This document shows, in pieces, positions 49,458 through 64,000 of a stretch of 64,000 bases of DNA; within the stretch, counting starts at the first letter, position 1, and every line of letters starts with the position of its first letter. Source of the stretch: Lysinibacter sp. HNR (GTDB lineage: Bacteria; Actinomycetota; Actinomycetes; Actinomycetales; Microbacteriaceae). Both the position numbers and the translations under genes were made by a program. The DNA lies in assembly GCF_029760935.1 (NCBI RefSeq), contig NZ_CP121684.1, positions 248,001 through 312,000 on the forward strand, written 5' to 3'. The notes under the pieces were generated by a model that worked only from the letters and a program-made list of their open reading frames with translations, made no database searches and was not told the DNA's origin.

Positions 49458-49539
49458 AATGATTCCTTTGATTGTCTTTCTACTAATAAATACTACTAGC
49501 AGCATTACTGATGACTTAAAGGACACAGTAGCAACATAA

Positions 49540-49554
49540 TTGACAATTAGTCAA
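49540..49554. promoter_or_regulatory. Operator candidate TTGAC-AATTA-GTCAA
   Basis: A perfect palindrome 30-45 bp before the XRE gene; TTGACA may double as a -35 box. Confidence 0.5.
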
Positions 49555-49585
49555 CAATATGGATATGTGCTCTAGTCTGGTTGTT

Positions 49586-49852
49586 ATGGATGACGTCGTA
49601 GAGATAGTGCGCGCTCATGTGCATGAACGGATGTATGGGAGGTTTCGGTCAAAAGCTGCTGTCGCGCGGGCTATGGATCTGGATCCAACAGAGTTTCATC
49701 GCAAACTCAATGGTCAGCGAGCTTGGTACTTACGAGATGTGATTGTTCTAGCGCGGGTGCTCGACACCACGGTGGGATGGTTGATCGGGGAAAATGAGAG
49801 TGGTCGGGGTGGTGAAGGTCTCGGCGGAGTGAATAAAGCTTCGCCCCGTTAA
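49586..49852 (+). CDS. XRE-type HTH protein, 88 residues
   Basis: HTH SKAAVARAMDLDPTEFHRKL. Starts at 49586 (97 residues if 49559). C-terminal tail Gly-rich. Divergent from the surface protein gene, which it may regulate through the palindrome at 49540. Confidence 0.72.
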   Translation: MDDVVEIVRAHVHERMYGRFRSKAAVARAMDLDPTEFHRKLNGQRAWYLRDVIVLARVLDTTVGWLIGENESGRGGEGLGGVNKASPR

Positions 49853-49931
49853 CGTGGTGGGAGAAATTAGGAAGGCCCTGGGATAACTCTCGATAAAGTA
49901 CTTAATTCCAGGGCCGCACAAGAGCTCCATA

Positions 49932-50303
49932 CTAGGTAAGAGTCTCCGCCTCTTCTTGAGTTTCGACGTTGGTTTTACGTAGAACGTGTGCGTGCATAAC
50001 CCACAGGCCGACACGTTTCCAGTACCCCGCATCAGCAAGAAGTGGATGATTCTTCCAGCGCTGTGCCCCGGCAAGAGCTAGGGCAATCACGGATGAAAGC
50101 CCAATCAAGATACCGTAAAAGGGTGATGACTCAGGACCCCAAATCGTAATACTCACACCGATGACGAGTACCACGCAGGTGGCAATAGCGGGCACAGTTT
50201 GCGTAGTTGGTAACGTGAGGTAAGCAATCAGCACTCCCACGCTGAGACCAAATAGGCTAGCAATAATGCACAGCAGCACAGTGTTCCTCCCTGTTAGCGA
50301 CAA
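49932..50303 (-). CDS. Small polytopic membrane protein (possible immunity partner)
   Basis: 123 residues with three or four helices (8-30, 36-56, 60-80), then a basic tail. Overlaps the 3' end of the secreted-protein gene by 10 bp. The pairing of a small membrane protein with a secreted product recalls bacteriocin immunity, without proof. Confidence 0.6.
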   Translation of the reverse strand: MSLTGRNTVLLCIIASLFGLSVGVLIAYLTLPTTQTVPAIATCVVLVIGVSITIWGPESSPFYGILIGLSSVIALALAGAQRWKNHPLLADAGYWKRVGLWVMHAHVLRKTNVETQEEAETLT

Positions 50304-51220
50304 TCACCGTCTTTATAAACCATTGCGAGGGGCACAGGTACAATAGAGATAAACAGACATTTCTTGGCTGACTGGGCAATGTTAGCCTGAGTGAAAAAGT
50401 AAGCACCGGCTGCGCCGCATGCGCCAGCAAGGGGCGGCGAAAACTTCGCCAACGCGCCACATATTCCGGTTGCGCCGCCTGCCGCAGCAAGACCTTTAGT
50501 TTCAGCTCGGTTGAATTTTGCACCCCATGCCGCCGCATACCAGTTCCACTGAGGATCCGCTACTACGGGATAAACCGTATCACGGGTGGGAATCACTACT
50601 TGCACAAGAGCGTCACCGCGTATCTCATAGCGTGTTTCAACCTCTCTTCCGTTTGCGTCACGAGCCCACGCATCTCCTACGCTGAAGGCGGTGAAGTCTC
50701 CAGCAGCGTTGAGGCCAACAGCCCACAGTGAGCCGTCTTCAGAAAATACCAATTGAAATTCCTCTCCAATCGCATAACTGAATTCATGTGCCGCTGAGGG
50801 AGTATTGATAACTGTCTGAACTCTCACTGATCCGTTATGCATAGCTTGAATAGCAGCGTCTACCTGGCTGTCAGACGACTTGTACACGACAGTTCCATCA
50901 GAGGCAACCTGCCCACTCTGTAAACCCAGATTCTGCGGCAGGATAATATTTAGCTTTGTTTCGTCACCTCCCGTAAGTTGCAGGGGATCAGTAGGATCTG
51001 ACGGGATATTCACCTCGCTGCCATTATTCGCTTCCCAGGTTTGACCATCTATTTCTTTTACCTGCACCACATCACCCTGATGAGGGGCAACCTGATCAAT
51101 AAGTTGAGCGATATCATCGCTAAACGGTGAACTAGCTGTGGCGGAACTCGTAGTAGCTACAATAAGCATAAAAGATGCGGCCAACGCAGTAACGCATGGG
51201 AACATGATCAACTTCTTCAT
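50294..51220 (-). CDS. Secreted protein with hydrophobic Gly/Ala-rich C-terminus
   Basis: About 308 residues from ATG 51220, with AAGGAG 9 bases upstream. Signal peptide (about 1-30), a soluble beta-rich region with YEIRGDALVQVVIPTRDTVYP, then the VVADPQWNW motif seen in many actinobacterial exported proteins. After this comes a 60-residue hydrophobic Gly/Ala stretch with three Cys (GICGALAKFSPPLAGACGAA). The C-terminus could be a released membrane-active peptide. Confidence 0.65.
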   Translation of the reverse strand: MKKLIMFPCVTALAASFMLIVATTSSATASSPFSDDIAQLIDQVAPHQGDVVQVKEIDGQTWEANNGSEVNIPSDPTDPLQLTGGDETKLNIILPQNLGLQSGQVASDGTVVYKSSDSQVDAAIQAMHNGSVRVQTVINTPSAAHEFSYAIGEEFQLVFSEDGSLWAVGLNAAGDFTAFSVGDAWARDANGREVETRYEIRGDALVQVVIPTRDTVYPVVADPQWNWYAAAWGAKFNRAETKGLAAAGGATGICGALAKFSPPLAGACGAAGAYFFTQANIAQSAKKCLFISIVPVPLAMVYKDGDCR

Positions 51221-51384
51221 CAAACAAAACTCCTTCAAAATATCAACATCGATTTTCGGGGGTTACTAAAACTTAGCAGACGCGAAAGAAAGATTAAAGG
51301 GTAGCTGCTCTGAGCGCATCACTCCGAGTCGGTGAGGCTGACGAAAATGTAGTTTCTTACTCAGCTTTTTCTTCGTAGTGCGTT

Positions 51385-51463
51385 GGTAGGATCATCCTAC
51401 GTTTTGGGCGGTTAGAACGTTTAGAACGGCCAAAAAAGAGGACAGAGCCCCGGAAAATCAACA
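51385..51463 (+). promoter_or_regulatory. Right-end arm sites of the ICE
   Basis: The palindrome GTAGGATCATCCTAC at 51386-51400, TTAGAACG twice near 51412-51428, and the 17-mer AGCCCCGGAAAATCAAC at 51447-51463. The last and GGTAGGAT are shared with the left end. No gene lies in 51221-51535. Confidence 0.55.
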
Positions 51464-51492
51464 TTCCCTAGTTGAGCCAGGGAGTAAATAGG

Positions 51493-51517
51493 GGTTCAAA
51501 TCCCTCCGTCTCCGCCA
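51493..51517 (+). repeat. attR core (25 bp), tRNA-Ser 3' fragment
   Basis: Identical to 12890-12914. Only the tRNA 3' end is present, so it is the displaced fragment. Confidence 0.92.
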
Positions 51518-51571
51518 CTGTGATGAGTCGCGACTGAAGCGTACTGGGTTTTGTTCCGTCATTGGGTTTCG

Positions 51572-52484
51572 TCATACCCGTGTTCTCACGGGCTGATATG
51601 TTTCAGCATAGTACGCTGTTTCGACCTCGACCGGGGTACGGTAATCGAGCGCTTCATGGAGACGTTGGTTGTTCCACCACCACACGTATTCCAGGGTAGC
51701 GAGTTCAACTTCCTCGACCGTTTTCCAGGGTCCTTGCCTGCGAATCAGTTCAGCCTTGTAGAGCCCGTTCACGGTCTCTGCGAGGGGCGTTATCGTAGCT
51801 GTCGCCAACGCTCCCTGTCGAGGGTATCGCGCCGAGCTCACGTACTCGTTCGGTGTAGACCACAGACATGTAATTCGACCCGTGACCCGAGTGCTGCCTG
51901 ACCCCACCTAAATCACCGCCAGTATTCCAAGCAGCCATATCGAGTGCCTGTAACGGGAGTTCTTCTGTCTTCAAGGTCGAGGCGACACTCCAACCAACGA
52001 TCTTGCGGGCGAACACGTCAGTGATGAACGCAACATACGCAAACCCAGACCACGTCGCGACATAGGTGATATCCGCAACCCACAGGCACCGTGGCGCGGC
52101 CGCAGCGAACGCACGATTCACCAGATCTCTAGGAAGGCCTTGTGCACGGTCGCTTCTCGTTGTGAATGCTTTAGCGCGGCGAGTAACGCCCTGAACTCCA
52201 GCAAGGCGCATGAGTCTGTTCGTCTGATCACGACCAATCTCCCAGCCCTCACGCTTCATCAATGCGTGCATCTTCCGTGCCCCGTAGACGCCATAGTTCA
52301 CGGTGTGGAGCCGACGAATTTCAGGTACCAGCAGTTCATCGCGTAACTGCCGCGCTGACGGTATTCGTTGTTTCGCTGCCCGATACCCGCGGGAAGTAAT
52401 AAATCCACGAACTGCCGCACGCAGGGTGCGACAGAGGAACTCAACCCCGAAATGATCACGGTATTGATCAATGAACCGGATCAT
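51572..52484 (-). pseudogene. IS3 OrfB transposase, broken by a +1 frameshift
   Basis: The DDE integrase domain is seen as WVADITYV (first Asp), FITDVFARKIVG and SVGDSYDNA. Then the frame is lost at an extra C (plus-strand run of four G at 51784-51787), and LAETVNGLYKAELI with the catalytic Glu continues in the next frame to 51572. Restoring one base gives a full-length OrfB of about 303 residues. Inactive unless programmed slippage occurs or the extra base is a read error. Confidence 0.88.
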
Positions 52485-52795
52485 TTCGTTCGTGGCTGAT
52501 CGAGTTCCTTCGCGAAAAATATGCTCGCAGCTTTGAGTACTTCATTCGCTTTCTTCAACTCCGCAACCTCACGCCGTAAACGCCGGTTTTCTTCAGCGAC
52601 ATCGGTCGTGATGCCAGGTCTGCTGCCGGTATCGATCTGGGTTTGGCGATACCACCTCCGAAGAGTGTCCGGGGCTACACCCAAAAGCCCACCGATATGC
52701 CCAGTTACCGCGTGAAGACTCGTATACTCAGGCATCGCCTCCACGATCATACGCAACGCCCGCTCACGGAACTGCGCATCATATTGTTTAGTCAT
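52481..52795 (-). CDS. IS3 OrfA (HTH part)
   Basis: 104 residues from ATG 52795. HTH with APDTLRRWYRQ and a leucine-zipper-like C-terminus (ENRRLRREVAELKKANEVLK). The 3' end overlaps orfB for the usual -1 frameshift fusion. Confidence 0.9.
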   Translation of the reverse strand: MTKQYDAQFRERALRMIVEAMPEYTSLHAVTGHIGGLLGVAPDTLRRWYRQTQIDTGSRPGITTDVAEENRRLRREVAELKKANEVLKAASIFFAKELDQPRTK

Positions 52796-52844
52796 AGTAT
52801 TCCTATCCTTATACAAAGACCGGAACAAAACCCAGTACGCTTCA

Positions 52845-53202
52845 CCTGCCGACAGTAGTGATAACTACTCGCCCCGATCTTCAGCAGTTGCAACAGAATC
52901 TTCAACGGAAACGTGAGGCGAAGAGTTTCAATGATCTGGGTCTTGTGAAGGTTTGACAGTTGTCCCGGGATGACGCCCTCGTCTTTTTTTACGAGTCCGA
53001 GTTCTCGTTCGAGCACCGCTTTCTCAACCAGGAGTTCAGCCGTTAGTCTCCTCAACTCAGTGATGTCATCGGGCAGGGATCGTTCAAGACTAGCGCGGGT
53101 GGGAAGCCCGTCAGCCTGTTTCTGTTCGCGTCTACTCATGAGCCCCCGGTCTCCGTGCTCTCGCCAGCGTTTCAATTTCCCGACCGAGCAGGCTGCGCTC
53201 AA
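52845..53202 (-). pseudogene. Truncated second IS3-type transposase
   Basis: N-terminal part only: a WREHGDRGLMSRREQKQ linker, coiled coil (ELRRLTAELLVEKAVLEREL), then QLSNLHKTQIIETLR and a GASSYHYCRQ segment, the start of an IS150-like transposase. It is cut by the IS3 end at 52844; no C-terminal half is found on the other side. Confidence 0.75.
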
Positions 53203-53390: not shown

Positions 53391-55190
53391 TCAGCGTGCA
53401 ATACGGTAACGGTTGATCGTGAAACCTTGAGGGGAAACGACGAGAATTCGTAGTGTGTGTAGATCAAAACTGAGGCTTTGGGTGGTTTCGAACGATCCGT
53501 GTATATTGCTTACAGGCAGTGGGCCGTGTGAGAGTGCGTTAGAGCCGGTGGCTTTATCCTGTAGTGAGAGAGCCGCATATATGTTCTCAGTGGAGCCTTG
53601 TGGGAGGATCTCTATTTTTCCATCGGTCGTCACTGACTCTACATAGAACTTTACATTTGGTGGTGTTCCAACGGAAATATACCGTGGGCCGCAAGTGACA
53701 CAATTCCCAGCGACTACTGTTGGGCCTCCTGTATATGAAATTGTTCCCGCACTAACTGATAGAAGTGACCCGCATCGAACGCAGGTCTCGCCTGTTTTTA
53801 TTGGCTCAAGCATCGCCATTCCCTCGATAATGTCTTCTAGCCTGTAGTCAAGGAAAGGATGAAATGCTGACACAATTCGTGCGCTAGCAAGTTTGTTGAG
53901 TCGAGCAGCAAGTCTAAGCTGTTGCTGTCCCGTGCTATCTCCAGAAAGGACTCTTGCTCTGCGCCAGGAATGAAATAAGAGAAGCAAGTTGCGAAGTCCA
54001 TTACGAACTTCCTTCAGGAGGTGCTGTGCTCCATCGGTTTCTCGTGAGCGCTCATTCAGCGAATCTAGTATAAGAGAATATGTCTGAGACAGAGCCAGTG
54101 CGTCACCAAGAATCTTTTCTGCGTTTAACGCATCTTCTGTGATGTCTTTGAGGATGAGCTGGGAAGGAACTGCCTGCTCGATGAATACCGTTTTTTCCGT
54201 GGCTGCAACACTTCCTTGAGTGTGACCTTCAATCTCGTAGAATCTCCCCGGAACTGTGCTTTCTGGTAGTCGTCTTACATTATGGCGGTGAGTTCTCAGG
54301 TTTGCAGTGACGGGATCCCCGAGCAATAACCAGGGGCGCGCACCGCGAAAACGCGGTGCGGAAAGCGTGTTCAAAAAATTGCACGCGGCTATCAAACCTT
54401 CTTCGGAAGCGATCAGAAACGCTAAACGTACTTCGTCACTCGTCAGGGGGACGGTACGGTCGTTGCATATAACTGTACGTACGGAACTGCTCGCAATCAT
54501 AGACAGAGCGGCACTTGCCTGATTTGAATAGTGCTCCCTTCCTGCCGAAAAGCCGCTGCAAGAAAGAAAAAGTATTTCTTCAGCAGCAAGATCGCTAAAA
54601 TTTCTAAAGCGACCCCCTGCGTGTCCTGCACGCTTGCAGTAGTTCTGATTACAGTCAGGGAAAGTAGTAACTTCCGATTTTACCTGACCGCAAAGTACGG
54701 TATTTCGTAAGTTTGCATGAGCACCTTCGCCGTGTGCATGCAAGCAGAGAATGCGCCAAGCGCGAGTCAAATCTGAGTGGTTGATCTGTTGTGGGTAGGG
54801 TAGGGTCTGAGTTTGATAACCCTTTATCTGCACGATAGAGCCATAGAGTTCATCAAGCAGAAGATCGCCGGAGGAAGAGCTTTTTGGACTGACCTGACGA
54901 GCGAGAAAGGCTTTGAGCTCTTGGGGAGACTGTGCCGTAGCTATGCCGCAACTGCCTGTGAATGATGTTGTAAGGTGATTGAGAAAGGGTCTTTTAAATA
55001 AATCGGGTTTACCAATAATAAAGGCGTTATTTGTCTGATGTGAGGTTAGCTCGCTGAGTCTATATAATTTCCGTTCCTCAAAATTTTCTAAATATTTAAT
55101 AGCAATTTCCCAATAGTCTTTATCAGAATAGATTGGAACGTCGCGAGACTGGAGTGGCTTTGCTGCTTGAAGAGGAGAAGAGTTAGTCAT
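53391..55190 (-). CDS. Caspase/CHAT-like protein with zinc-binding Cys pairs
   Basis: 599 residues from ATG 55190, which overlaps the preceding stop by 8 bp. A candidate catalytic His is in LCLHAHGEGAH (H153) and a candidate Cys in LFLSCSGFSAG (C211), the His-Gly then Cys-Ser/Gly order of the caspase-fold clan CD (CHAT, gingipain, caspase). Between them is a Cys group (C168, C180, C185). A helical middle follows (about 320-450), then CVRCG and CVTCG near 475-505 (zinc ribbon), and a beta-rich C-terminus. As the last gene of the biosynthetic operon it could mature, guard or respond to the product. It could also be a defence-type protease. The role is unknown; fold assignment is from motifs only. 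Confidence 0.6.
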   Translation of the reverse strand: MTNSSPLQAAKPLQSRDVPIYSDKDYWEIAIKYLENFEERKLYRLSELTSHQTNNAFIIGKPDLFKRPFLNHLTTSFTGSCGIATAQSPQELKAFLARQVSPKSSSSGDLLLDELYGSIVQIKGYQTQTLPYPQQINHSDLTRAWRILCLHAHGEGAHANLRNTVLCGQVKSEVTTFPDCNQNYCKRAGHAGGRFRNFSDLAAEEILFLSCSGFSAGREHYSNQASAALSMIASSSVRTVICNDRTVPLTSDEVRLAFLIASEEGLIAACNFLNTLSAPRFRGARPWLLLGDPVTANLRTHRHNVRRLPESTVPGRFYEIEGHTQGSVAATEKTVFIEQAVPSQLILKDITEDALNAEKILGDALALSQTYSLILDSLNERSRETDGAQHLLKEVRNGLRNLLLLFHSWRRARVLSGDSTGQQQLRLAARLNKLASARIVSAFHPFLDYRLEDIIEGMAMLEPIKTGETCVRCGSLLSVSAGTISYTGGPTVVAGNCVTCGPRYISVGTPPNVKFYVESVTTDGKIEILPQGSTENIYAALSLQDKATGSNALSHGPLPVSNIHGSFETTQSLSFDLHTLRILVVSPQGFTINRYRIAR

Positions 55191-55824
55191 GATCGTCTGA
55201 GCTGAGGTAGGTGATGGTAATAGACTTCCTACGAAATTGTCCTGTTCCTGGTGGCTCCACAGCGTGCCACGAATTCTCGGTCGGAGCGAAAAGTACTGAA
55301 CTTCGGTAGGTCGGTTCAATTCGTTTGACAGTCGTAGCAGCATCGGCTGACCGGAGCAACGCGAGATGCCCACCATGTTCAGGAACCCAGTCAGGCGACA
55401 GGTACAAAATTTGAGTGAGCTTCTTTTCGGGTTTGTCAACATGGGGTGAGAGCCAATCACCCTCACCATAACTCCACGCATCCACCCGCACCACAAGTGA
55501 TTTCACATCAGCGTCAAAAGCTGTAGATAACGCAGAGCGATAGTGAGGGGAATCGACCGCATCAAGAAGCGCGGATGTCGCTGGAGCATCGGCTGTTTCG
55601 TTCCGTTGTAAACGTGTAGTTCGGAAGCTATAAGTCTTATCACCGTTGTCGCGTCGAGCGCGTTCCAAGCGGCTGTCGAATACTTCGCGAACTAGTTGTG
55701 ATGCGAATTGATCGGGGAGCACTTCCATAACCTGTCTGTGTGGCCACGGATCCCGAGAAAGGTTCGTGTTTTGGATCTGTGTAACCATCCAGTCAACGAG
55801 GGAATCAAAAGCGGTTGTAGACAT
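55183..55824 (-). CDS. 2-oxoglutarate/Fe(II) oxygenase A
   Basis: 213 residues. The jelly-roll iron site is H128-x-D130 (LSPHVDKPEKK) and H187 (ENSWHAVEP), with an Arg/Lys around residue 197 (QFRRKSITI) for 2-oxoglutarate. The middle YLSPDWVPEHGGHLALL matches its operon paralogue. Resembles prolyl-4-hydroxylase-like enzymes. In nikkomycin/polyoxin two such enzymes (NikI and NikM type) oxidise the octosyl acid and related intermediates, so a similar task on a C-nucleoside is inferred. Confidence 0.8.
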   Translation of the reverse strand: MSTTAFDSLVDWMVTQIQNTNLSRDPWPHRQVMEVLPDQFASQLVREVFDSRLERARRDNGDKTYSFRTTRLQRNETADAPATSALLDAVDSPHYRSALSTAFDADVKSLVVRVDAWSYGEGDWLSPHVDKPEKKLTQILYLSPDWVPEHGGHLALLRSADAATTVKRIEPTYRSSVLFAPTENSWHAVEPPGTGQFRRKSITITYLSSDDHD

Positions 55825-56588
55825 TATGTGCCGTTCCTCCTTGGCTCGTTAGAAAACTCACATACTTCAAGAACTCGTGCAAGCAGGGTATCGGCGTTGT
55901 TAACCTGCCCTAAAAAGTAAGGGTGCTCAGGAGCAACCGCGCGGGGGATGTCATCGTGTCTGATCATCTGTAACGCCCAGTAACCGTGGCGAAGTGGACC
56001 AAGTATGTCTGGTTCGATCCTGTCTCCAACAAACAAGGTTTGATTTGGTTCGGCACCTATTTGCTTAAGTTCACGATACATGCGCTCGTTAGGTTTGAGT
56101 GCTCCAACTCTTGAGGAAGAAATGATGCCGATGGGAGCCGGAATAGAAGTGCCAATTTTATTTACAAACTTTTCGATCACGTCTGGTGAGGAATTTGAGC
56201 ATACCGCCCATTTAAATCCAAGCTGTGTAAGCGTGTAAATCATTGGTATTACATCGTTATAGAGGGTAACGTTGCGATGTCGTTCGGCTTTTTCACATAG
56301 CTTTAGTATGGAACGTTGGTTTTCAATTTTTGCAATATTCATTGTTGTAATTATGCGGTTGCGTCGTAAGGTCCAAAAAGTCTCATCGTTGAGAGCTTGT
56401 GGTGCGAGTTCTTCGCCATCGGTTCCATCAATAAGTGCGATGAGCTCAGCCAGGCATAGTTTTTCTTGAATTGGTGATCGAGCCCAGACCACGTGTGCAG
56501 CACTGGGAACTGAATTCGAAGACCAATGACACAGAGTCTGGAACAGATCAAAAACAATCACTTCAAAGGCTGGCATGCGCACTCTCAT
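55824..56588 (-). CDS. HAD-superfamily hydrolase-like protein
   Basis: 254 residues. Motif I is VFDLFQTLCHW: nucleophile D14, but Phe in place of the second Asp that serves as acid/base in phosphatases. Motif II CSNSS near residue 131; Lys in KPNERMYREL; motif III FVGDRIEPDI near residue 195. An alpha-helical C1 cap lies between I and II. Members of the FDLFGTL type include phosphatases and dehalogenases. Coupled to both neighbours by overlapping stop/start codons. May remove a phosphate or act on an unusual bond. Confidence 0.8.
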   Translation of the reverse strand: MRVRMPAFEVIVFDLFQTLCHWSSNSVPSAAHVVWARSPIQEKLCLAELIALIDGTDGEELAPQALNDETFWTLRRNRIITTMNIAKIENQRSILKLCEKAERHRNVTLYNDVIPMIYTLTQLGFKWAVCSNSSPDVIEKFVNKIGTSIPAPIGIISSSRVGALKPNERMYRELKQIGAEPNQTLFVGDRIEPDILGPLRHGYWALQMIRHDDIPRAVAPEHPYFLGQVNNADTLLARVLEVCEFSNEPRRNGT

Positions 56589-57178
56589 CCCACATCACGG
56601 TAAGCATGTACTAAAACGGTGGTGCGATAGGACGGGCACAAATCAGTGATCGGAGCCACCTCATGCCAGGAGTCTAGGGAACGTGCAAAAGCAACCCCTG
56701 TTCCTTGAAAGGGGTAAGCTTTGCAGGTTGGCTTCACTGTGTCTGCTGACTCGTATAGACGAAGATCTCCACCCCAACTCTCTCGCCAGTCAGGGCTGAA
56801 ATAGTAGATAGCTGAAAATACTTTATCGGGACCGTCTGTGTGGCGAGACATCCAGTTTGATGCGCCGTATGCGGCCAAGCGAACTTCAACCTCGGTGATC
56901 TCGTTCGAGTCCACTCCAAGGTCATTTGCTATGCGTTGGGTATTGGTGTCGTCCCCTAAAATACGTACAAGAGATGCCCAATCTTCCGGTAGTTGGGTAG
57001 ATAAGCCTGACGATTTTCGATACGCTTCGAGCATCCGTGTGCTGTACGTCTTGTCGCTTCCATTGTTCCTTGATGTGTGATCGAGCAGGTCTACTGGAAA
57101 AGACGAGAGTGAGCTTGGCGGCTCGAAAGCTATATGTATGTGGGCGAATGGGTCGGTGTGTAGGGTATGTGAGATCAT
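56585..57178 (-). CDS. 2-oxoglutarate/Fe(II) oxygenase B
   Basis: 197 residues from ATG 57178, which overlaps the aminotransferase stop (ATGA); an upstream ATG at 57268 would lie inside that gene. Iron site H113-x-D115 (SRHTDGPDK) and H172 (LDSWHEVAP); R185 for 2-oxoglutarate. Shares YYFSPDWRESWGGDLRL with oxygenase A, so the two are related. Predicted to hydroxylate or further oxidise the sugar-derived part of the nucleoside. Confidence 0.8.
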   Translation of the reverse strand: MISHTLHTDPFAHIHIAFEPPSSLSSFPVDLLDHTSRNNGSDKTYSTRMLEAYRKSSGLSTQLPEDWASLVRILGDDTNTQRIANDLGVDSNEITEVEVRLAAYGASNWMSRHTDGPDKVFSAIYYFSPDWRESWGGDLRLYESADTVKPTCKAYPFQGTGVAFARSLDSWHEVAPITDLCPSYRTTVLVHAYRDVG

Positions 57179-58242
57179 TTTTGTTCCTTCCACGCTCCTG
57201 TCAGCTCTGAGATAAGCTGTCCCATGATCTGATCTAAAGCAATTGAAAACCGAATGCTTGTGTGCCAATTGAGTGCAGTATTGACTTTTGTTCGAATGCC
57301 TAGTTGTAATAGGTGTTGTGCGATACGTTCGGCCTTTTCTTGTGTAAGAAATACGTGAAGGAAATTAGCTTCGGACGTGGGAACTTCCATACCGATACTG
57401 AGGAGTTCTTGGCGGACCTTGTCGCGTTCTTGTGTGATGTCATTCCAGATTGGCTCGTATTGCGAGTAAGACGCGAAACACTGCCTCATCAAATCCAGTG
57501 CATGCTGACTCACTCCATTTTCGATACCCGCCACAGCTAAGTGCGATATGTTTTCGGGTGCTCCCGTCACTATTGCAGCACGTGCTGCTGCAAGGCCAAA
57601 AGCTTTCGAGGATGTAAATACTGTATTCAGTGACGACATAATCTGCTTGAGATCGTGTCGAGGAGCAAAGAACGGAGCATAACAAAGGTCGACGACAAGT
57701 TCTGAACCTTGCTCCCGACACCGTGCGTCTAGTGCAAAGAGTTCGTCGACTGAGAAGCTCCCGTGCGCTACAGGAGCATTCGGCCAGGTCACCGCTACGA
57801 TTGTTTGAGCTCCTATTCGCGAGACAAGATGCTCAAAGTCCTTTTCGCGTTCACCAGAAATCACAACCGTGTCAAAAGGAAGGTTGTAGAGGGTTGCGGC
57901 TTGTTTCCAGGCTGGATACGCAGGGGATAGGTACAGTAACTTTTTAAAACCACGTGACTGTGCAACCCCGACGATTGCCCGTATGGCCGCATCGGATCCG
58001 GGTGAGAAGATTAACTGCTCCTCGGGTCTGCCGATAAAAGCTGCAATCTCAGTGGCGGCCTGGGAGTGAACGGGATAAAAGTTAAGGGGAGTAACTCGGG
58101 GGTTAAAGAGCGTGTGTAAATTTGAAAGCTGTGGATGTTGAAGCTCGTTAGAGCCAAGATTTATGCCCGACCTCACACCGCGGCGTTCAAAAGATAAAAG
58201 CTCGAAATCTGGAATGGTGTAAGAGGGTGAGTGTGGATTCAA
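57175..58242 (-). CDS. PLP-dependent aminotransferase (HisC/NikK-like)
   Basis: 355 residues, fold type I, class I/II. The PLP lysine is K213 in FTSSKAFGLAAARA, the ring-contact Asp is in LVVDLCYAPF (D185), Asn in WPNAPVAHG (N155), and the carboxylate-binding Arg in SIRFSIA near the C-terminus. Length matches histidinol-phosphate aminotransferase relatives. In the nikkomycin/polyoxin pathway NikK/PolI, of this family, adds the amino group that gives aminohexuronic acid. The same reaction on a C-nucleoside aldehyde is my inference. Confidence 0.85.
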   Translation of the reverse strand: MNPHSPSYTIPDFELLSFERRGVRSGINLGSNELQHPQLSNLHTLFNPRVTPLNFYPVHSQAATEIAAFIGRPEEQLIFSPGSDAAIRAIVGVAQSRGFKKLLYLSPAYPAWKQAATLYNLPFDTVVISGEREKDFEHLVSRIGAQTIVAVTWPNAPVAHGSFSVDELFALDARCREQGSELVVDLCYAPFFAPRHDLKQIMSSLNTVFTSSKAFGLAAARAAIVTGAPENISHLAVAGIENGVSQHALDLMRQCFASYSQYEPIWNDITQERDKVRQELLSIGMEVPTSEANFLHVFLTQEKAERIAQHLLQLGIRTKVNTALNWHTSIRFSIALDQIMGQLISELTGAWKEQK

Positions 58243-59567
58243 ACTCGTTCCATCACATTCTGAGGGATTTTATTCATGACGGAAGTGACGTGGGGATCTA
58301 CACCGAAGAAAAACTCGTACCACGGGTATTGTTTATTACTACGCTCATTGCTGGAGAAACCCAAAAGCTGTCGATTAAATCGCCATAGATCCTCTTTGTG
58401 CTGACATCTTCGTAACTCATCCAGGTCGGCATATACAGTAGGGCGTACTCGTGCGCCCACTTCTTGTGCTGCTTTGACTGTCGCACGGGTTCCTTCAAGT
58501 GTGGTTCCAGGGAGCCCCACCATGATAAAAAAGTTTAGCTCGATGCCAAACTCATGAGCGTTGTTATTGAGCTCTTCGAAGCGCATAATCTCAGTCCGTT
58601 TTTTCCTGGGAAGAGTTTCCAAGCCGCCGGGTTCAAGAGTCTCTAACCCTACGCTTATCCTGACGCAGCCTGACTCAGCCATTCTTTTCATAAGCTCCGC
58701 ATCCAGATGGGGGATGGCGGTGGCGCACTTCCAGGGAAGATTACAGGATGAGCGTTCCATCTCCGCACAGAACTCCAGCGTCCATTTCCTATCAAAGGTG
58801 AAAGTGGGTGCATAGAACGAGACGTAGTCGAACGGTCTAGTTTCTACGGCTGTTTCGATGTAGTCAACTATTCTTTTGGCGCTCAAGCGGCGATCACGCA
58901 AACCCTGTACGGTTGGTACTTCACAAAAAGAGCAGTTGATGGGGCAACCTCGCCCCACGGGGACAACTAATTCGCGTCGCTCGGGGATTCCGCAAAACTT
59001 ATTTTGATCCCTTGAATACAATCGATCATAGTCATGATATGGAATTTCAGACACATCAGGTAGCGGCCAGGTTCCGGGCAAAAACCTACGTCCCGCAGAA
59101 GCCTTGATCCAATGAGTGCCGTCTCGAACATCTATACCGACTAATTGTGTGGGTGATTGCTCACTCAGCATCCAAGAGACATACTCGTAAAACCCTAGCT
59201 CAACATCGCCACCAGTGACGATACCGTCAAGGTCGAACTGTCGAAATACGAGGGGAGCTTCCATGCTGAGCCGACCTCCCGTGATGACGTGGCAACCGGG
59301 CGCGAGCGAGCGAATATACTCAATAAAACGATCCAGATTATCGACCGTGTCAAAATCATTAATGATAATTACGAGATCGGGAGAGCTTTGATAGATCTGT
59401 TCTCCGATCTCTTTCCACGTCAGATTAAGCAAGCCAAACTCTGCGGAAGTAAGATCAATTTCTGGAAATTCTGATCGAAGCATTTCGGATGTCGTGTAAA
59501 CAGTCAAGTGGTGACCCGCATTAAAGTAGCTTGGTACGTGTGGAGGCCAGACGACCAGGACTTTCAT
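58239..59567 (-). CDS. Radical SAM enzyme with B12-binding-type N-domain (NikJ/PolH-like)
   Basis: 442 residues. The N-terminal 150 residues look like a B12-binding Rossmann domain (VVWPPHVPSYF, VITGGRLSMEAP) but lack a clear DxHxxG cobalamin motif. The radical SAM cluster is CPINCSFC (C208, C212, C215), followed by YAPTFTFDRKW and ISVGLETLEPG. In octosyl acid synthesis NikJ/PolH uses a 5'-deoxyadenosyl radical to close the second ring of 3'-enolpyruvyl-UMP. Together with the enolpyruvyl transferase in this cluster the same bicyclic closure is expected here. Confidence 0.82.
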   Translation of the reverse strand: MKVLVVWPPHVPSYFNAGHHLTVYTTSEMLRSEFPEIDLTSAEFGLLNLTWKEIGEQIYQSSPDLVIIINDFDTVDNLDRFIEYIRSLAPGCHVITGGRLSMEAPLVFRQFDLDGIVTGGDVELGFYEYVSWMLSEQSPTQLVGIDVRDGTHWIKASAGRRFLPGTWPLPDVSEIPYHDYDRLYSRDQNKFCGIPERRELVVPVGRGCPINCSFCEVPTVQGLRDRRLSAKRIVDYIETAVETRPFDYVSFYAPTFTFDRKWTLEFCAEMERSSCNLPWKCATAIPHLDAELMKRMAESGCVRISVGLETLEPGGLETLPRKKRTEIMRFEELNNNAHEFGIELNFFIMVGLPGTTLEGTRATVKAAQEVGARVRPTVYADLDELRRCQHKEDLWRFNRQLLGFSSNERSNKQYPWYEFFFGVDPHVTSVMNKIPQNVMERV

Positions 59568-60160
59568 ATTTTGTCCTCCAATATATATGTAATAAATGCT
59601 TTTTTAGCTAGGTTATTTCGGGCCTGGAAGTCTAGATAGGTTTCATCGCGCCTGGTAAGGATTTCTTCGAGCCAATCTGGCCTCGTGTCGAGCAGGGAAA
59701 ACGTTTCTTGTGCTTCTCGTACCCGCACGGATAGAGGCGCCCCAAAGCCTTTGAGTAGATTGTCTATGACTATGCCTGTGCGGTCTCTTCCAAGCTGGCA
59801 CATAATAACAAGATCGAAACCCTCAAGAAGGAGTTCCCGAGCCTTTAAGTAAACCGGTTCAGAAAGAACTTTTAACTGTTGGTAGTGAGATAAAAACACA
59901 TTTTCATCTCGATGAATCCTTGGAATTGCAGCGAAATCAGGGTCGTTTAGAGAGTACCGAAGTGTTTGACAGTTTGTTCGCTTGTGTCTGATTTCGTTTG
60001 ATTTTCGTAGGTCGATAATATAGCCAAGAAACGGCAGTGGAAGCGTAGGCAAGCTATCAGTTCCTGCAGCTGCGCGGTACAGGACCCCTTGGTGATCGTT
60101 TGCTCTGGTTCCGCTTATGGGTATTTTTCTAGCGAATTTCAAAGTATCTAAAGTTTTCAC
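59564..60160 (-). CDS. Tyrosine-phosphatase-fold phosphatase (NikL/PolJ-like)
   Basis: 198 residues. Active-site loop CQLGRDRTG (C121, R127) is the CX5R signature of the cysteine-based phosphatase family, of the Y_phosphatase3 type. A conserved N-terminal GVLYRAAAGTDSL segment also fits. In nikkomycin and polyoxin clusters a phosphatase of this fold removes the 5'-phosphate after ring closure. Coupled to the radical SAM and TruD-like genes by ATGA overlaps. Confidence 0.82.
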   Translation of the reverse strand: MKTLDTLKFARKIPISGTRANDHQGVLYRAAAGTDSLPTLPLPFLGYIIDLRKSNEIRHKRTNCQTLRYSLNDPDFAAIPRIHRDENVFLSHYQQLKVLSEPVYLKARELLLEGFDLVIMCQLGRDRTGIVIDNLLKGFGAPLSVRVREAQETFSLLDTRPDWLEEILTRRDETYLDFQARNNLAKKAFITYILEDKI

Positions 60161-61245
60161 TGCGCTTTAGCCCCAATGACGCGAAGAAACTGTGCAATTG
60201 CCATAGTTGCGTATGAGCCAGAGGGCAAAAAGAAACTTATCGTTGCGCAGTATTTTCCAGGATGCAGGGAATCTTCTTTGGGGGCTTCAAGATGGAAAAG
60301 CGTGTTTACACGTACGGCTCGTTCTTGATGAAGCGCAGTTGGTGAACTATTGACTAAACGTACGGTTGTGTAGGGGGAGGCCAGGGGTAAAGACGCAAAA
60401 TTATCTTCCTGTGGGAAGCTGTATTCAATACCGTCCCTGTATACTTTTTCAACAGGTGATATCTCCCGTAATCTGTCTGCGACTGATGAGTTCCAGAGGA
60501 AAGAATAATGTGCAGACCGATAGAAACTAGTAATACGTTGGTCCAGGGAGTCAAAAAAGTCAACAGCAGTTCCTGTATGCTGCTGTGCCGCCAGAGCTTC
60601 CGCTGATCCCGAGGCTGCTACTAACGGGAGAGCATTATCAAACTCTTTGTCTTGAAGATATTTTCCGATTAAATGTGTTTGTGATGGTCCCGTTGGAACA
60701 CCAAATCTTTGAGTATCGTAATAATTAATAAATTCAAAATGACGCTTTGATTCTGTTGGCCAGTAGGCCAAGTCGCTCTCGGCGATGTTTCGAACCGTAA
60801 TGTTAAAACTGTTGCCAAAGAGGTCTCCTACGCTAATTGGCTCGCGGCTCGTTCCTATAAAGGTCACCCGAAGATACTTATCCTGGTCAGTGAAAAGCTC
60901 ATCTTTGTGTAGTGTGGAGGTCTCGGGAATACTGAAATACTGATGGGTGATTGCGTTTTCATCTTTGAGTCCGGCATACCCAATTTTTTCACGACCTATA
61001 TTGAGGGCATCGGCGATAAACCCTATCGCCTGGAAGGTGGTCAAATTACGTTTTGATACAAGGAAAATGTTGTAGCGAGAATCAAGGCTGCTGATTTGTT
61101 TGTTGGCGCTTGTTCTAGATTCCAGATGAAACCGTGGCGTTTCATGCACAACAAAATCTTCAGGTGTTGTTTTCAGTGCGGCGTCTGCAAGGGGTGGAGT
61201 GAATTCTGGTGGTATTCCAATAATTGAATCAGGAGTAGGACTCAC
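60157..61245 (-). CDS. TruD-like pseudouridine synthase (MalD/PumJ-like)
   Basis: 362 residues from a GTG. The start has PEDFVVHE; the catalytic motif GYAGLKDENAITHQ contains Asp95; and NYYDTQRFG is the second TruD signature. These are uncommon in actinobacterial core genomes, where tRNA uses other pseudouridine synthases. In malayamycin MalD makes 5'-pseudouridine monophosphate from UMP, and PumJ does so for pseudouridimycin. It would provide the C-C glycosidic bond here. First gene of the minus-strand operon. Confidence 0.88.
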   Translation of the reverse strand: MSPTPDSIIGIPPEFTPPLADAALKTTPEDFVVHETPRFHLESRTSANKQISSLDSRYNIFLVSKRNLTTFQAIGFIADALNIGREKIGYAGLKDENAITHQYFSIPETSTLHKDELFTDQDKYLRVTFIGTSREPISVGDLFGNSFNITVRNIAESDLAYWPTESKRHFEFINYYDTQRFGVPTGPSQTHLIGKYLQDKEFDNALPLVAASGSAEALAAQQHTGTAVDFFDSLDQRITSFYRSAHYSFLWNSSVADRLREISPVEKVYRDGIEYSFPQEDNFASLPLASPYTTVRLVNSSPTALHQERAVRVNTLFHLEAPKEDSLHPGKYCATISFFLPSGSYATMAIAQFLRVIGAKAQ

Positions 61246-61343
61246 GTTATATACCTATCGTCGTTGATGGTTCTGGCTTAGGAACTCACCTTAATCTGGT
61301 TAAGATTTTGCACACGTATGCCCAGAGGTTTTAGACTTACACA
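61246..61343. promoter_or_regulatory. Divergent promoter of the biosynthetic cluster
   Basis: Plus side: TTGCAC (61308-61313), 18-base spacer, TAGACT (61332-61337), and ATG at 61344, so a leaderless mRNA is likely. A palindrome CTTAA-TCTGG-TTAAG lies at 61290-61304. Minus side: TATATAA just before the GTG of the truD-like gene. One operator could control both operons. Confidence 0.6.
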
Positions 61344-62678
61344 ATGCCATCATATAATATCAAAGGGGGAAAACCTTTGATAGGGGCTGTCCAACCAGAA
61401 GGCTTTAAACATGCTTTTGTAACCGTTCTTGCGGCTTCGTTCCTTGGTCAGCATGACGTTACAATCGCTGGGGCTCCAACGACACAGCTAGAAGCAAGTA
61501 CTCTTTTAACGTTGCTCGAGGCTGTTGGGGCATCTGTTTCAGTAAAAGATGATAAGGTCTCGCTTGGAATTAATCAGGTCTCAGGGAGTTTCCCTCAACC
61601 CTTATACCAATCAATCCACGGTAGTCTCTATCTCGTCCCTGGTCTGCTCGCACACACGGGAGAAGTGACAATGCACCCCGCAGGTGGGTGCGCCATAGGT
61701 AATGGTGTTGCCGGAGGGCGTCCAATGAGTCACTATTTTGAAGTGTTAAGGCGATATGGTGCAATAGTGGACGTAACGACTGGCTCAGTCCGGATGCCTG
61801 TCGGAGGTCTTCGTGGCACCGTAATTGACCTGGTTGATTTCGTAGACGATCCCCAACTTATGACCGGGCCTTTGTATTCAGGTGCAACTAAGTTTGCGAT
61901 CCTTTGCGCAGCGATCTCTAGTGGTGTTTCAATAATTCGGAGCGCGTATCCTAAAGCTGACGTGACAGAGATGGTTCGAACGCTTCAACTTTTAGGGGCA
62001 GATATCGAAATAGATAGTGAGCAGGATATCATGCGCATCCAATCAGGCAGTCTGCTTTCCGAGCGCCGTAATGTTGTCCATCATCTCATTTCAGATCCGA
62101 TGCAGACGCTTACTTGGCTAGTAGCTGGTGTTATGACGGGAGGGGATGTTCATATTGATGCTCATGATGTCCGCATTCTCAGACAGAGCATGCAGGCAGA
62201 ATGTGAAGCTCTCACGAGAATGGGCTTTGAGATCCACGAGTCAGCTAGAAGTCTCTCGATTGCCAATGGTGCTCGACCCATTAAAGGGATTGACCTTAAG
62301 ATTCACTCACGTGGCGTGTTTAGTGATGCGCAACCAATTTTTGCGTTACTTATGACAAAACTGTCTGGCTTTTCGACCATTATCGACACAGTTTGGCGGC
62401 GACGTTATGAGTATGTGCAAGGCCTTAACGCATTGGGGGGTAGTATACGAAAGACTTCATCCGGCATTCGTATTGCTGGAGGGTACCCTCCGTCCATATC
62501 AGATGTTAGGGTCACTGGAACTGATTTGAGAGCTGCTGTCTCATTGGTTCTTGCTGGAACAGCTATTAACGGTACTACTATGGTTTATGGAGTTGAGCAT
62601 CTTGATCGGGGTTTTACGAATTTTGCATCGGTCCTTGAATCTTTAGGTGGTTCGGTGACTCGAGAGGGCTTTGAGTGA
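61344..62678 (+). CDS. MurA/NikO/MalO-like enolpyruvyl transferase
   Basis: 444 residues. Two-domain inside-out barrel with six repeats as in MurA/EPSP synthase. The Cys loop AGGCAIGNGVAGGRP has C116, the counterpart of MurA Cys115. The N-terminal GGKPLIGAVQPEGFKH fits the family start, with Gly/Gln in place of MurA SGAKN. NikO/MalO add phosphoenolpyruvate to the 3'-OH of UMP or pseudouridine-MP rather than UDP-GlcNAc. Context rather than motif decides the substrate; a second genomic MurA is to be expected elsewhere. ATGA overlap with the kinase gene. Confidence 0.82.
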   Translation: MPSYNIKGGKPLIGAVQPEGFKHAFVTVLAASFLGQHDVTIAGAPTTQLEASTLLTLLEAVGASVSVKDDKVSLGINQVSGSFPQPLYQSIHGSLYLVPGLLAHTGEVTMHPAGGCAIGNGVAGGRPMSHYFEVLRRYGAIVDVTTGSVRMPVGGLRGTVIDLVDFVDDPQLMTGPLYSGATKFAILCAAISSGVSIIRSAYPKADVTEMVRTLQLLGADIEIDSEQDIMRIQSGSLLSERRNVVHHLISDPMQTLTWLVAGVMTGGDVHIDAHDVRILRQSMQAECEALTRMGFEIHESARSLSIANGARPIKGIDLKIHSRGVFSDAQPIFALLMTKLSGFSTIIDTVWRRRYEYVQGLNALGGSIRKTSSGIRIAGGYPPSISDVRVTGTDLRAAVSLVLAGTAINGTTMVYGVEHLDRGFTNFASVLESLGGSVTREGFE

Positions 62679-63217
62679 AAGTTCGAAGAATTCTTGTACT
62701 CGGCTCTCCAGGGGTTGGGAAAACTACTATCTCCCGCCTGCTATCAAATAGATTAAGAATTCCGTACATTTCCCTTGATGATGAGTATTGGCAAGCTGAT
62801 TGGGAGCGTCCATCATGCCAGGAGTGGAGCAAAACGCTTAAGGCCATTACAGAGCGTTCGTCGTGGGTTATAGATGGAAATCATGCACGAACCCTTACAG
62901 TACGTGCAAGCAGGGCGGAAGTCGCAGTAATTGTTTCAGCACCGGCGCTGCTTTGCTGTTACCGAATATTGTATCGAGTAGTCCGTATACGCCGAGGGGA
63001 ATATAGCTTGGCACCCAAACGTGTCGCTGCTCAATTAGAGGTCGGTGTAAAAACCTCAGCAAGTAAAGACCTTTTTGAGCTCCTTGTGCTTGCTTTGCGT
63101 TTCCAGAAGAAGACTCTTCCGGAGGTTCTTGGTGTGCTTGCTGACAGTGGAGTTCGAATTGTGCGGGTAACTTATAAGACTAGTGATCAGGAGATAGAGC
63201 GTTTATTACGGGGATAA
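62675..63217 (+). CDS. P-loop nucleotide/nucleoside kinase-like protein
   Basis: 180 residues. Walker A VLGSPGVGKTTIS at 8-20, then DDEYW and WVIDGNHART, the pattern of adenylate-kinase-like 'topology modulation' (FlaR) proteins. Pseudouridimycin clusters also have an adenylate kinase-like gene. It might phosphorylate pseudouridine or a pathway nucleoside; also possible is a self-protection role by phosphorylating the product. Confidence 0.75.
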   Translation: MKVRRILVLGSPGVGKTTISRLLSNRLRIPYISLDDEYWQADWERPSCQEWSKTLKAITERSSWVIDGNHARTLTVRASRAEVAVIVSAPALLCCYRILYRVVRIRRGEYSLAPKRVAAQLEVGVKTSASKDLFELLVLALRFQKKTLPEVLGVLADSGVRIVRVTYKTSDQEIERLLRG

Positions 63218-63218
63218 T

Positions 63219-64000
63219 CTACAGGGTTTTGGGCCGCATTCGTAGAAGAGCTGATCCTAGAGTGCAGAGAACTGCAACTTCTCCGATTGCAGCAACCCAT
63301 AGCGCTGCTGGAATACCAAGCTTTTCCCCGATAAAAGAGATAATCAGGGCGCCGAGCGGCAGGCTGCTCATTATTGCGACTCGGGCGCTTGCGTTTACCT
63401 TTCCCAGAGCTCCCGGAGGCGTGAGTTTTTGTCGAAGGGTTACGAGGGCAATGTTGATGATCGGGGTTCCATAGCCGATCAAAACTTGTGCGGCAAGCAG
63501 AGTAGCCAGTGGGATGCTGGTCCAAGCTGAGAGTGCCAGCAGAATCGTTCCCAAAGCCATTGATGTAAGCCCGAGAGCGACACACTGACCCTCGTGAAAT
63601 TTTTTAGACCAATATGGGTAGGTTGCTGCTCCACAGAATGCACCAACACCTAAAAGTGCGACGCTAATACCAAGTATTGTGGGATTATAACCCAGCGTGC
63701 GTGTCACAAAAAGCACAAAGAGCGCGCTTGCTCCTGCTACAAAAATATTCAAGAATGCCCCGGATGTCACAACTAGTCGAATCTGGCGTGATTGCCAGAC
63801 GAGTCGAAGTCCGGATAGTACGTCTTCAAAGATTTTTGGATTAGGTGAGTCTTTTTCCGTAGGAGGTTGGGGGAGGATCCTGTAGCGCCCCGGTAAAAAG
63901 AGCAGTGCGACAAGGGCGATCAAAAAGGTGACTGAATTTATTGAAATGAGGTATTCAGGTTTGTAGGCGGTGGCGAGTACTCCTCCAAGAAGTGGGCCTG
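63219..64000 (-). CDS. MFS exporter, 5' part beyond the window
   Basis: The visible 260 residues hold six or more helices with the loop patterns of the DHA3/MefA-type major facilitator family (LGYNPTILGISVALLGVGAF, YGTPIINIALVTLRQ). The reading frame continues through 64000 on the minus strand, so the N-terminal half lies outside. It ends 1 bp from the convergent kinase gene. Likely exports the nucleoside product or gives self-resistance. Confidence 0.8.
   Translation of the reverse strand, partial: GPLLGGVLATAYKPEYLISINSVTFLIALVALLFLPGRYRILPQPPTEKDSPNPKIFEDVLSGLRLVWQSRQIRLVVTSGAFLNIFVAGASALFVLFVTRTLGYNPTILGISVALLGVGAFCGAATYPYWSKKFHEGQCVALGLTSMALGTILLALSAWTSIPLATLLAAQVLIGYGTPIINIALVTLRQKLTPPGALGKVNASARVAIMSSLPLGALIISFIGEKLGIPAALWVAAIGEVAVLCTLGSALLRMRPKTL

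Follow-up and report, generated by a model that had tools for sequence, protein, structure and literature searches.

A compact gene cluster in Lysinibacter sp. HNR that probably encodes a malayamycin-type C-nucleoside pathway

Organization of the cluster

The 64,000-nt stretch analysed here (hereinafter the window) comprises positions 248001–312000 of the complete, single-contig 2.92-Mb genome of Lysinibacter sp. HNR. Its downstream end holds a cluster of biosynthetic genes that very probably specifies a malayamycin-type route from pseudouridine to a C-nucleoside. A first-pass annotation of the sequence had named ten gene functions in this region, and all ten are encoded in open reading frames (ORFs) at the positions given there, with the expected family matches (Table 1). 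One start, that of oxygenase 1, was corrected from 57268 to 57178. The cluster does not end with the window but goes on for another 1.2 kb, as far as about position 65245, and this extension contains the rest of the MFS exporter gene and a DUF6065 gene. The whole cluster consists of 12 genes in about 12 kb; the genes are intact and form three transcription units.

Eight genes follow one another on the minus strand: those for the TruD-type synthase, phosphatase, radical S-adenosylmethionine (SAM) enzyme, aminotransferase, oxygenase 1, HAD protein, and oxygenase 2, with the orphan ORF last. Each junction among the first seven is an overlap of 1 to 4 bp, and oxygenase 2 and the orphan ORF share about 5 bp. 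Because successive genes overlap, the set is an operon rather than a chance grouping. The genes for the NikO-type transferase and the P-loop kinase overlap each other on the plus strand and diverge from the TruD operon, 98 bp away. By inspection, the catalytic motifs of the radical SAM enzyme (CxxxCxxC), the phosphatase (CX5R), the TruD-like protein (GLKDE), the transferase (GGC loop), the kinase (Walker A), and both Fe(II)/2-oxoglutarate (2OG) oxygenases (HxD...H...R) are intact.

Table 1. Features of the cluster, in window coordinates
Feature	Position	Strand	Evidence
TruD-type pseudouridine synthase, C-nucleoside clade	60157..61245	-	PF01142; tree; GLKDE and NYYDxQRFG motifs; TruD fold in model
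CX5R phosphatase, NikL/PolJ-like	59564..60160	-	PF13350 (Y_phosphatase3) 3e-7; 27% identity to NikL
Radical SAM cyclase, NikJ/PolH family	58239..59567	-	Radical_SAM; 43% identity over 436-439 aa to NikJ
Pyridoxal-phosphate aminotransferase, NikK/HisC-like	57175..58242	-	PF00155 (Aminotran_1_2) 3e-22
Fe(II)/2OG oxygenase 1, NikM-like	56585..57178	-	PF13640 (2OG-FeII_Oxy_3) 5e-11; 33% identity to NikM-position enzyme; ATGA overlap
HAD-superfamily protein	55824..56588	-	PF00702 4e-15
Fe(II)/2OG oxygenase 2, NikI/NikM-like	55183..55824	-	PF13640 2e-12; 31% identity to NikM-position enzyme
Orphan protein, about 598 aa, last gene of TruD operon	53391..55187	-	overlaps oxygenase 2
Divergent intergenic region, presumed shared promoter region	61246..61343	.	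98-bp gap between divergent genes
3'-Enolpyruvyl transferase, NikO type	61344..62678	+	EPSP_synthase family; PDB NikO 4fqd best match; NikO-type motifs; tree
P-loop kinase, PumH/PolQ2/MalE-type, presumed 2'-kinase	62675..63217	+	homologues in related clusters
MFS exporter	63219..64000, on to 64511	-	PF07690 4e-39
DUF6065 gene (outside the window)	64508-65245		PF19541 2e-12; overlaps MFS gene

The TruD-like protein belongs to a C-nucleoside clade

TruD is present in one of 395 genomes of the class, that of Lysinibacter sp. HNR, and in none of 58 relatives of the same family and order. Among 393 Streptomyces genomes it was found in three, for which the genome scan names S. eurocidicus ATCC 27428, S. 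albus NRRL B-1811, and S. albireticuli. A kinase homologue accompanies TruD at each of these loci, and an amidinotransferase-like gene was recognized by eye in at least one (L016); therefore, the three loci fit pseudouridimycin clusters and are designated pseudouridimycin-type below. No relative of the window TruD was found in viral contigs.

Two trees were calculated with TruDs of diverse bacteria and archaea, one with 54 other TruDs (SH-like approximate likelihood ratio test, SH-aLRT, 100) and one with 25 (bootstrap/SH-aLRT 100/99). In these trees, the window TruD, the pseudouridimycin-type TruDs, and the TruDs of Mesorhizobium loti and Gloeothece form one clade apart from the others, with the window protein 35–37% identical to the pseudouridimycin-type proteins and 35% identical to that of M. 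loti. All seven members of this C-nucleoside clade have the motifs GLKDE[DN] and NYYD[TL]QRFG[VL]PxG, while in almost all other TruDs the catalytic Asp is followed by R, K, A, or T. The match to the Pfam TruD profile ends near position 200 in five of five C-type proteins scanned (at position 195 of 412 in the window TruD), while the five other TruDs scanned give full-length, longer, or two-part matches. The separate clade and the partial profile match argue against a tRNA pseudouridine(13) synthase TruD. An alignment-based model of the window TruD has a predicted local distance difference test (pLDDT) score of 79, and the structure search finds with confidence only TruD/PUS7-type structures. 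We infer that the fold and the catalysis are kept and that the outer region, which contacts RNA in the tRNA enzymes, has diverged.

The transferase is of the NikO type

By its sequence, the transferase is a NikO-type enzyme and not a MurA. Its best match in the PDB is NikO (4fqd, 224 bits), 86 bits above the best MurA (138 bits). The segments GFKH, IHGSLYL, GP.YSGA.K, and SRGVFSD.QP are common to the transferase and NikO and differ in MurA, and the tree separates NikO-type proteins, including the window transferase, from MurA. The transferase also scores below the murA cut-off (213 vs 392.7 bits), and a normal MurA is encoded elsewhere in the genome, at 1273067.

A further NikO-type transferase was seen on CP000631.1 (Rhizobium rhizogenes K84 pAtK84c; L020, 11944-18727), where it lies beside an asparagine-synthase-like gene, a Cof-type hydrolase, an ATP-binding protein, and a MATE-type pump. 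K84 is a producer of the nucleoside agrocin 434, presumably from a plasmid of about the size of pAtK84c, and we take these genes to be candidates for its synthesis.

The remaining core enzymes have homologues in nikkomycin clusters

Two Streptomyces genomes (G625 and G614) encode NikO sequences nearly identical to PDB 4fqd, and their loci are thus nikkomycin clusters. Their gene order is oxygenase, radical SAM enzyme, aminotransferase, phosphatase, oxygenase, and a fused MFS-kinase-NikO gene. An additional N-nucleoside cluster, in another genome (G546), shares this core and, like the nikkomycin clusters, has no TruD. Seven window proteins, namely the radical SAM enzyme, aminotransferase, phosphatase, both oxygenases, NikO, and kinase, have homologues in both nikkomycin clusters and in G546.

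The window radical SAM enzyme is 43% identical to NikJ of both nikkomycin clusters, 45% to the G546 protein, and 43% to that of M. loti, compared with 22% to other Streptomyces radical SAM proteins. Two such proteins (G278 and G398) were considered as NikJ and rejected, on the basis of the 22% identity and of no other core gene being found nearby. Identity to the nikkomycin-cluster enzymes is 33% for NikO and 31–33% for the oxygenases, and the aminotransferase is 25% identical to NikK and 28% to the M. loti homologue. The kinase is 42% identical to its G546 homologue, 37% to that of M. loti, 29–31% to those of pseudouridimycin-type clusters, and about 28–30% to those of nikkomycin clusters. 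PumH is 42% identical to PolQ2 and MalE (PMC7955054), and members of this family are described there, with reference to Draelos et al., as 2'-phosphorylating nikkomycin and polyoxin intermediates.

A comparison with nikkomycin and pseudouridimycin-type clusters, proposed in the first-pass annotation, thus recovers seven core homologues in the former and TruD plus the kinase in the latter. With nikkomycin, the window cluster has in common the NikI/J/K/L/M/O-type genes and the kinase; it differs in the presence of TruD and in the separation of kinase and NikO from the MFS part, and the nikkomycin pathway uses uridine as substrate. With pseudouridimycin, it has in common a TruD of the same clade and a PumH-type kinase, but pseudouridimycin clusters have no NikO, radical SAM, phosphatase, or 2OG oxygenase gene and have the amidinotransferase-like gene noted above. 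Nikkomycin, polyoxin, and pseudouridimycin-type clusters carry ATP-grasp or peptide-ligase genes, whereas the Pfam matches of the window cluster include no peptide ligase, ATP-grasp ligase, GMC oxidase, or amidinotransferase. The gene set therefore agrees with neither the N-nucleoside (nikkomycin/polyoxin) nor the pseudouridimycin type.

Comparison with malayamycin and the M. loti cluster

Malayamycin is reported to be made with a TruD-type synthase together with MalO, MalJ, MalL, MalM, MalI, and MalK (PMC8724604), consistent with the earlier description of a TruD-like synthase acting with NikO-like MalO. The name MalD, which that description gave to the TruD-like enzyme, conflicts with this source, in which MalD is a carbamoyltransferase. 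The malayamycin A pathway of Streptomyces malaysiensis and S. chromofuscus has the whole core in common with the window cluster: the TruD-type synthase, the MalO transferase, the radical SAM enzyme MalJ, the phosphatase MalL, the 2OG oxygenases MalM and MalI, the aminotransferase MalK, and the kinase MalE (PMC8724604, PMC7955054). Specifically, the window contains a TruD of the C-nucleoside clade, a NikO/MalO-type transferase distinct from MurA, a NikJ/PolH/MalJ-type radical SAM enzyme, a phosphatase, two 2OG oxygenases, an aminotransferase, and a presumed 2'-kinase.

The two gene sets differ at the periphery. Malayamycin needs carbamoyl and methyl steps (PMC8724604), whereas no carbamoyltransferase or O-methyltransferase is found among the Pfam matches of the 12-kb cluster or of its flanks. 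The window cluster adds the HAD protein, the orphan protein, and DUF6065, has 12 genes compared with about 20 ORFs for malayamycin, and resides in a presumably Micrococcales-type host rather than in Streptomyces. The malayamycin cluster itself (deposited as KJ493330 and MH537786) was absent from the sample, in which it was sought via TruD in the 393 Streptomyces genomes and by a genome-contig scan.

A relative lies on plasmid p_2 of M. loti 582 (CP050294.1, 350000-363000). It comprises TruD (35% identity to the window protein), a radical SAM enzyme (43%), a kinase (37%), NikO (35–38%), an aminotransferase (28%), one oxygenase (31%) compared with two in the window cluster, and a tyrosine-phosphatase-type gene. 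It also has a carbamoyltransferase, a methyltransferase, and DUF6071, and judged from these genes its inventory is closer to malayamycin than that of the window cluster is. The coding sequence of the M. loti NikO falls in two overlapping frames, and the gene may be defective.

A malayamycin-like cluster is thus present on the plasmid of a root-nodule symbiont, and was also seen on NZ_CP050298.1 (M. huakuii). In Gloeothece verrucosa PCC 7822, plasmid Cy782202 (NC_014534.1) carries a C-nucleoside-clade TruD beside a glycosyltransferase, a sulfotransferase-like protein, a histidine phosphatase, and an ABC exporter, with no NikO or radical SAM gene at the locus; this cyanobacterium may have a different C-nucleoside pathway.

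Proposed pathway and product

The TruD clade, the NikO-type transferase, the NikJ-like radical SAM enzyme, and the core homologues support the earlier proposal of a pathway to a pseudouridine-based nucleoside of the octosyl or aminohexuronic acid type, and we consider it highly likely that the core is a malayamycin-type C-nucleoside route. The enzyme families are recognized from sequence, and the reactions in Lysinibacter sp. HNR are predicted from them. The TruD-like enzyme would isomerize uridine or uridine monophosphate (UMP) to pseudouridine. The NikO-like enzyme, by analogy to MalO, would transfer enolpyruvyl from phosphoenolpyruvate to the 3'-OH of 5'-pseudouridine monophosphate. The radical SAM enzyme would then abstract H-5' and close the second ring, giving an octosyl-acid 5'-phosphate. 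In polyoxin biosynthesis, PolH cyclizes 3'-enolpyruvyl-UMP to octosyl acid 5'-phosphate in vitro, and dephosphorylation by PolJ follows (PMC5365060). The kinase would add a cryptic 2'-phosphate and the CX5R phosphatase would take phosphate off, the two oxygenases and the aminotransferase would oxidize and aminate the high-carbon sugar, and the MFS protein would export the product.

In the known pathways, one set of oxygenases and aminotransferase leads to the aminohexuronic product (nikkomycin) as well as to malayamycin, and the genes therefore do not reveal the final structure. The lack of a linked carbamoyltransferase, methyltransferase, or peptide-ligase gene indicates that the product is probably not malayamycin, and is probably either a less or differently decorated malayamycin relative or a pseudouridine-based equivalent of the aminohexuronic acid of polyoxin and nikkomycin. 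More tentatively, and with the chances against it, the product could represent a new C-nucleoside class. Examples would be this aminohexuronic equivalent (a "pseudo-uracil polyoxin C") and an octosyl C-nucleoside for which the orphan protein, the HAD protein, and DUF6065 carry out the last steps in place of carbamoyl, methyl, or peptide tailoring; in that case, the orphan protein would be a new tailoring or self-protection enzyme.

The best of the alternatives, although improbable, is an octosyl pathway on uridine that follows the N-nucleoside logic of nikkomycin and polyoxin and yields an N-nucleoside, with the TruD-like protein modifying RNA or acting late. Such a pathway would agree with the completeness of the seven-gene core without TruD in the nikkomycin clusters and G546, and with the overall TruD fold retained in the model, but not with a TruD that is the first, translationally coupled gene of the operon, belongs to the C-nucleoside clade, is diverged beyond Pfam position 200, and accompanies this core in M. 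loti as well. Synthesis of malayamycin A itself is very improbable: the core enzymes are the same as those reported for it, but the carbamoyltransferase and O-methyltransferase that the compound requires are absent from the 12 kb, and both types are present in the M. loti relative. That the TruD-like and MurA-like proteins serve as extra housekeeping enzymes (for tRNA Psi13 and peptidoglycan) with no dedicated pathway is suggested by their broad family names and has next to no likelihood in view of the genome's own MurA and two separate RsuA/RluA-type pseudouridine synthases, a transferase that is below the murA cut-off and nearest to NikO, and the near absence of TruD from the class.

Several points weigh against the malayamycin-type C-nucleoside route. 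The comparison with malayamycin draws on a review and on the related M. loti cluster; the aminotransferase and the phosphatase have low identity to the nikkomycin enzymes (25–27%); the pathway is predicted here from genes; the cluster could be silent; and for the TruD-like enzymes of clusters like these, that of pseudouridimycin included, the substrate is not yet settled.

What is new and what it means

The combination of TruD with NikO and NikJ was taken at first as new, but malayamycin already couples them (PMC8724604), and the core logic is thus known. The claim that the cluster adds genes absent from either logic holds for the HAD protein and fails for the kinase, which belongs to the PumH/PolQ2/MalE family (PMC7955054), and for the MFS exporter, which is ordinary; the orphan ORF and DUF6065, both unlisted at that stage, are truly additional as well. 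The novelty lies in these three accessory genes and in the lack of any gene for a carbamoyltransferase, a methyltransferase, or a peptide ligase. The surprise is limited, since PumJ-like genes in diverse taxa have already been taken as a sign of undiscovered C-nucleosides (PMC7955054).

The cluster is nevertheless compact, apparently intact, and outside Streptomyces, which makes it a practical target for heterologous expression of an octosyl C-nucleoside pathway. Together with M. loti and the pseudouridimycin-type loci, it defines a signature, GLKDE[DN] plus NYYDxQRFGxPxG, that sets C-nucleoside TruDs apart from the rest of the TruDs sampled. Owing to this signature, the question of whether the substrate is tRNA, UMP, or uridine can be addressed by swapping the acidic residue beside the catalytic Asp.

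Accessory genes

The HAD protein, the orphan protein, and DUF6065 are candidates for a role in tailoring or in protection. Motif I of the HAD protein is DLFQT, without the second Asp typical of HAD phosphatases, and the nearest named types include L-2-haloacid dehalogenase (haloacid dehalogenase II). DUF6065 was not found in the genomes of the pseudouridimycin-type, nikkomycin, and G546 strains, and is therefore no shared pathway gene.

The orphan gene lies in a 701-aa ORF at 53391, and its start is most likely 55187, giving 598 aa with CxxC pairs close to the C-terminus. The protein has no match in Pfam, NCBIfam, PADLOC, PDB, or the plasmid and viral collections, and no homologue in 246 genomes of the phylum. 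Two weak matches were judged to be due to chance; the one in G128, which was checked, sits in an unrelated GC-rich ORF. The segments HGEGAH and LSCSG prompted consideration of a CHAT/caspase-like protease, which was rejected: there is no Pfam match even at an E-value of 10, and comparison with 20 Streptomyces CHAT domains gives an hhalign probability of 0.1% and an hmmsearch score of −1.9 bits. An AlphaFold model calculated without an alignment has a pLDDT of 34, too low to be of use.

Borders and origin of the cluster

The G+C content of the cluster is 48%, compared with 54% on both flanks. Decayed, mutually related insertion sequences (ISs), IS3-like and others, flank the cluster at window positions 49500-53200 and genome positions 313600-317800. 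Because the G+C content deviates and related IS remnants lie on both sides, the cluster was probably acquired horizontally, and the flanking remnants suggest that transposition took place around the island or that ISs inserted there repeatedly. Immediately downstream of the island (L003, 2500-7918) lie leucine-rich-repeat surface proteins in tandem, of which one has a highly repetitive unit of 22 residues, together with a beta-propeller protein whose tail resembles a cell-wall anchor.

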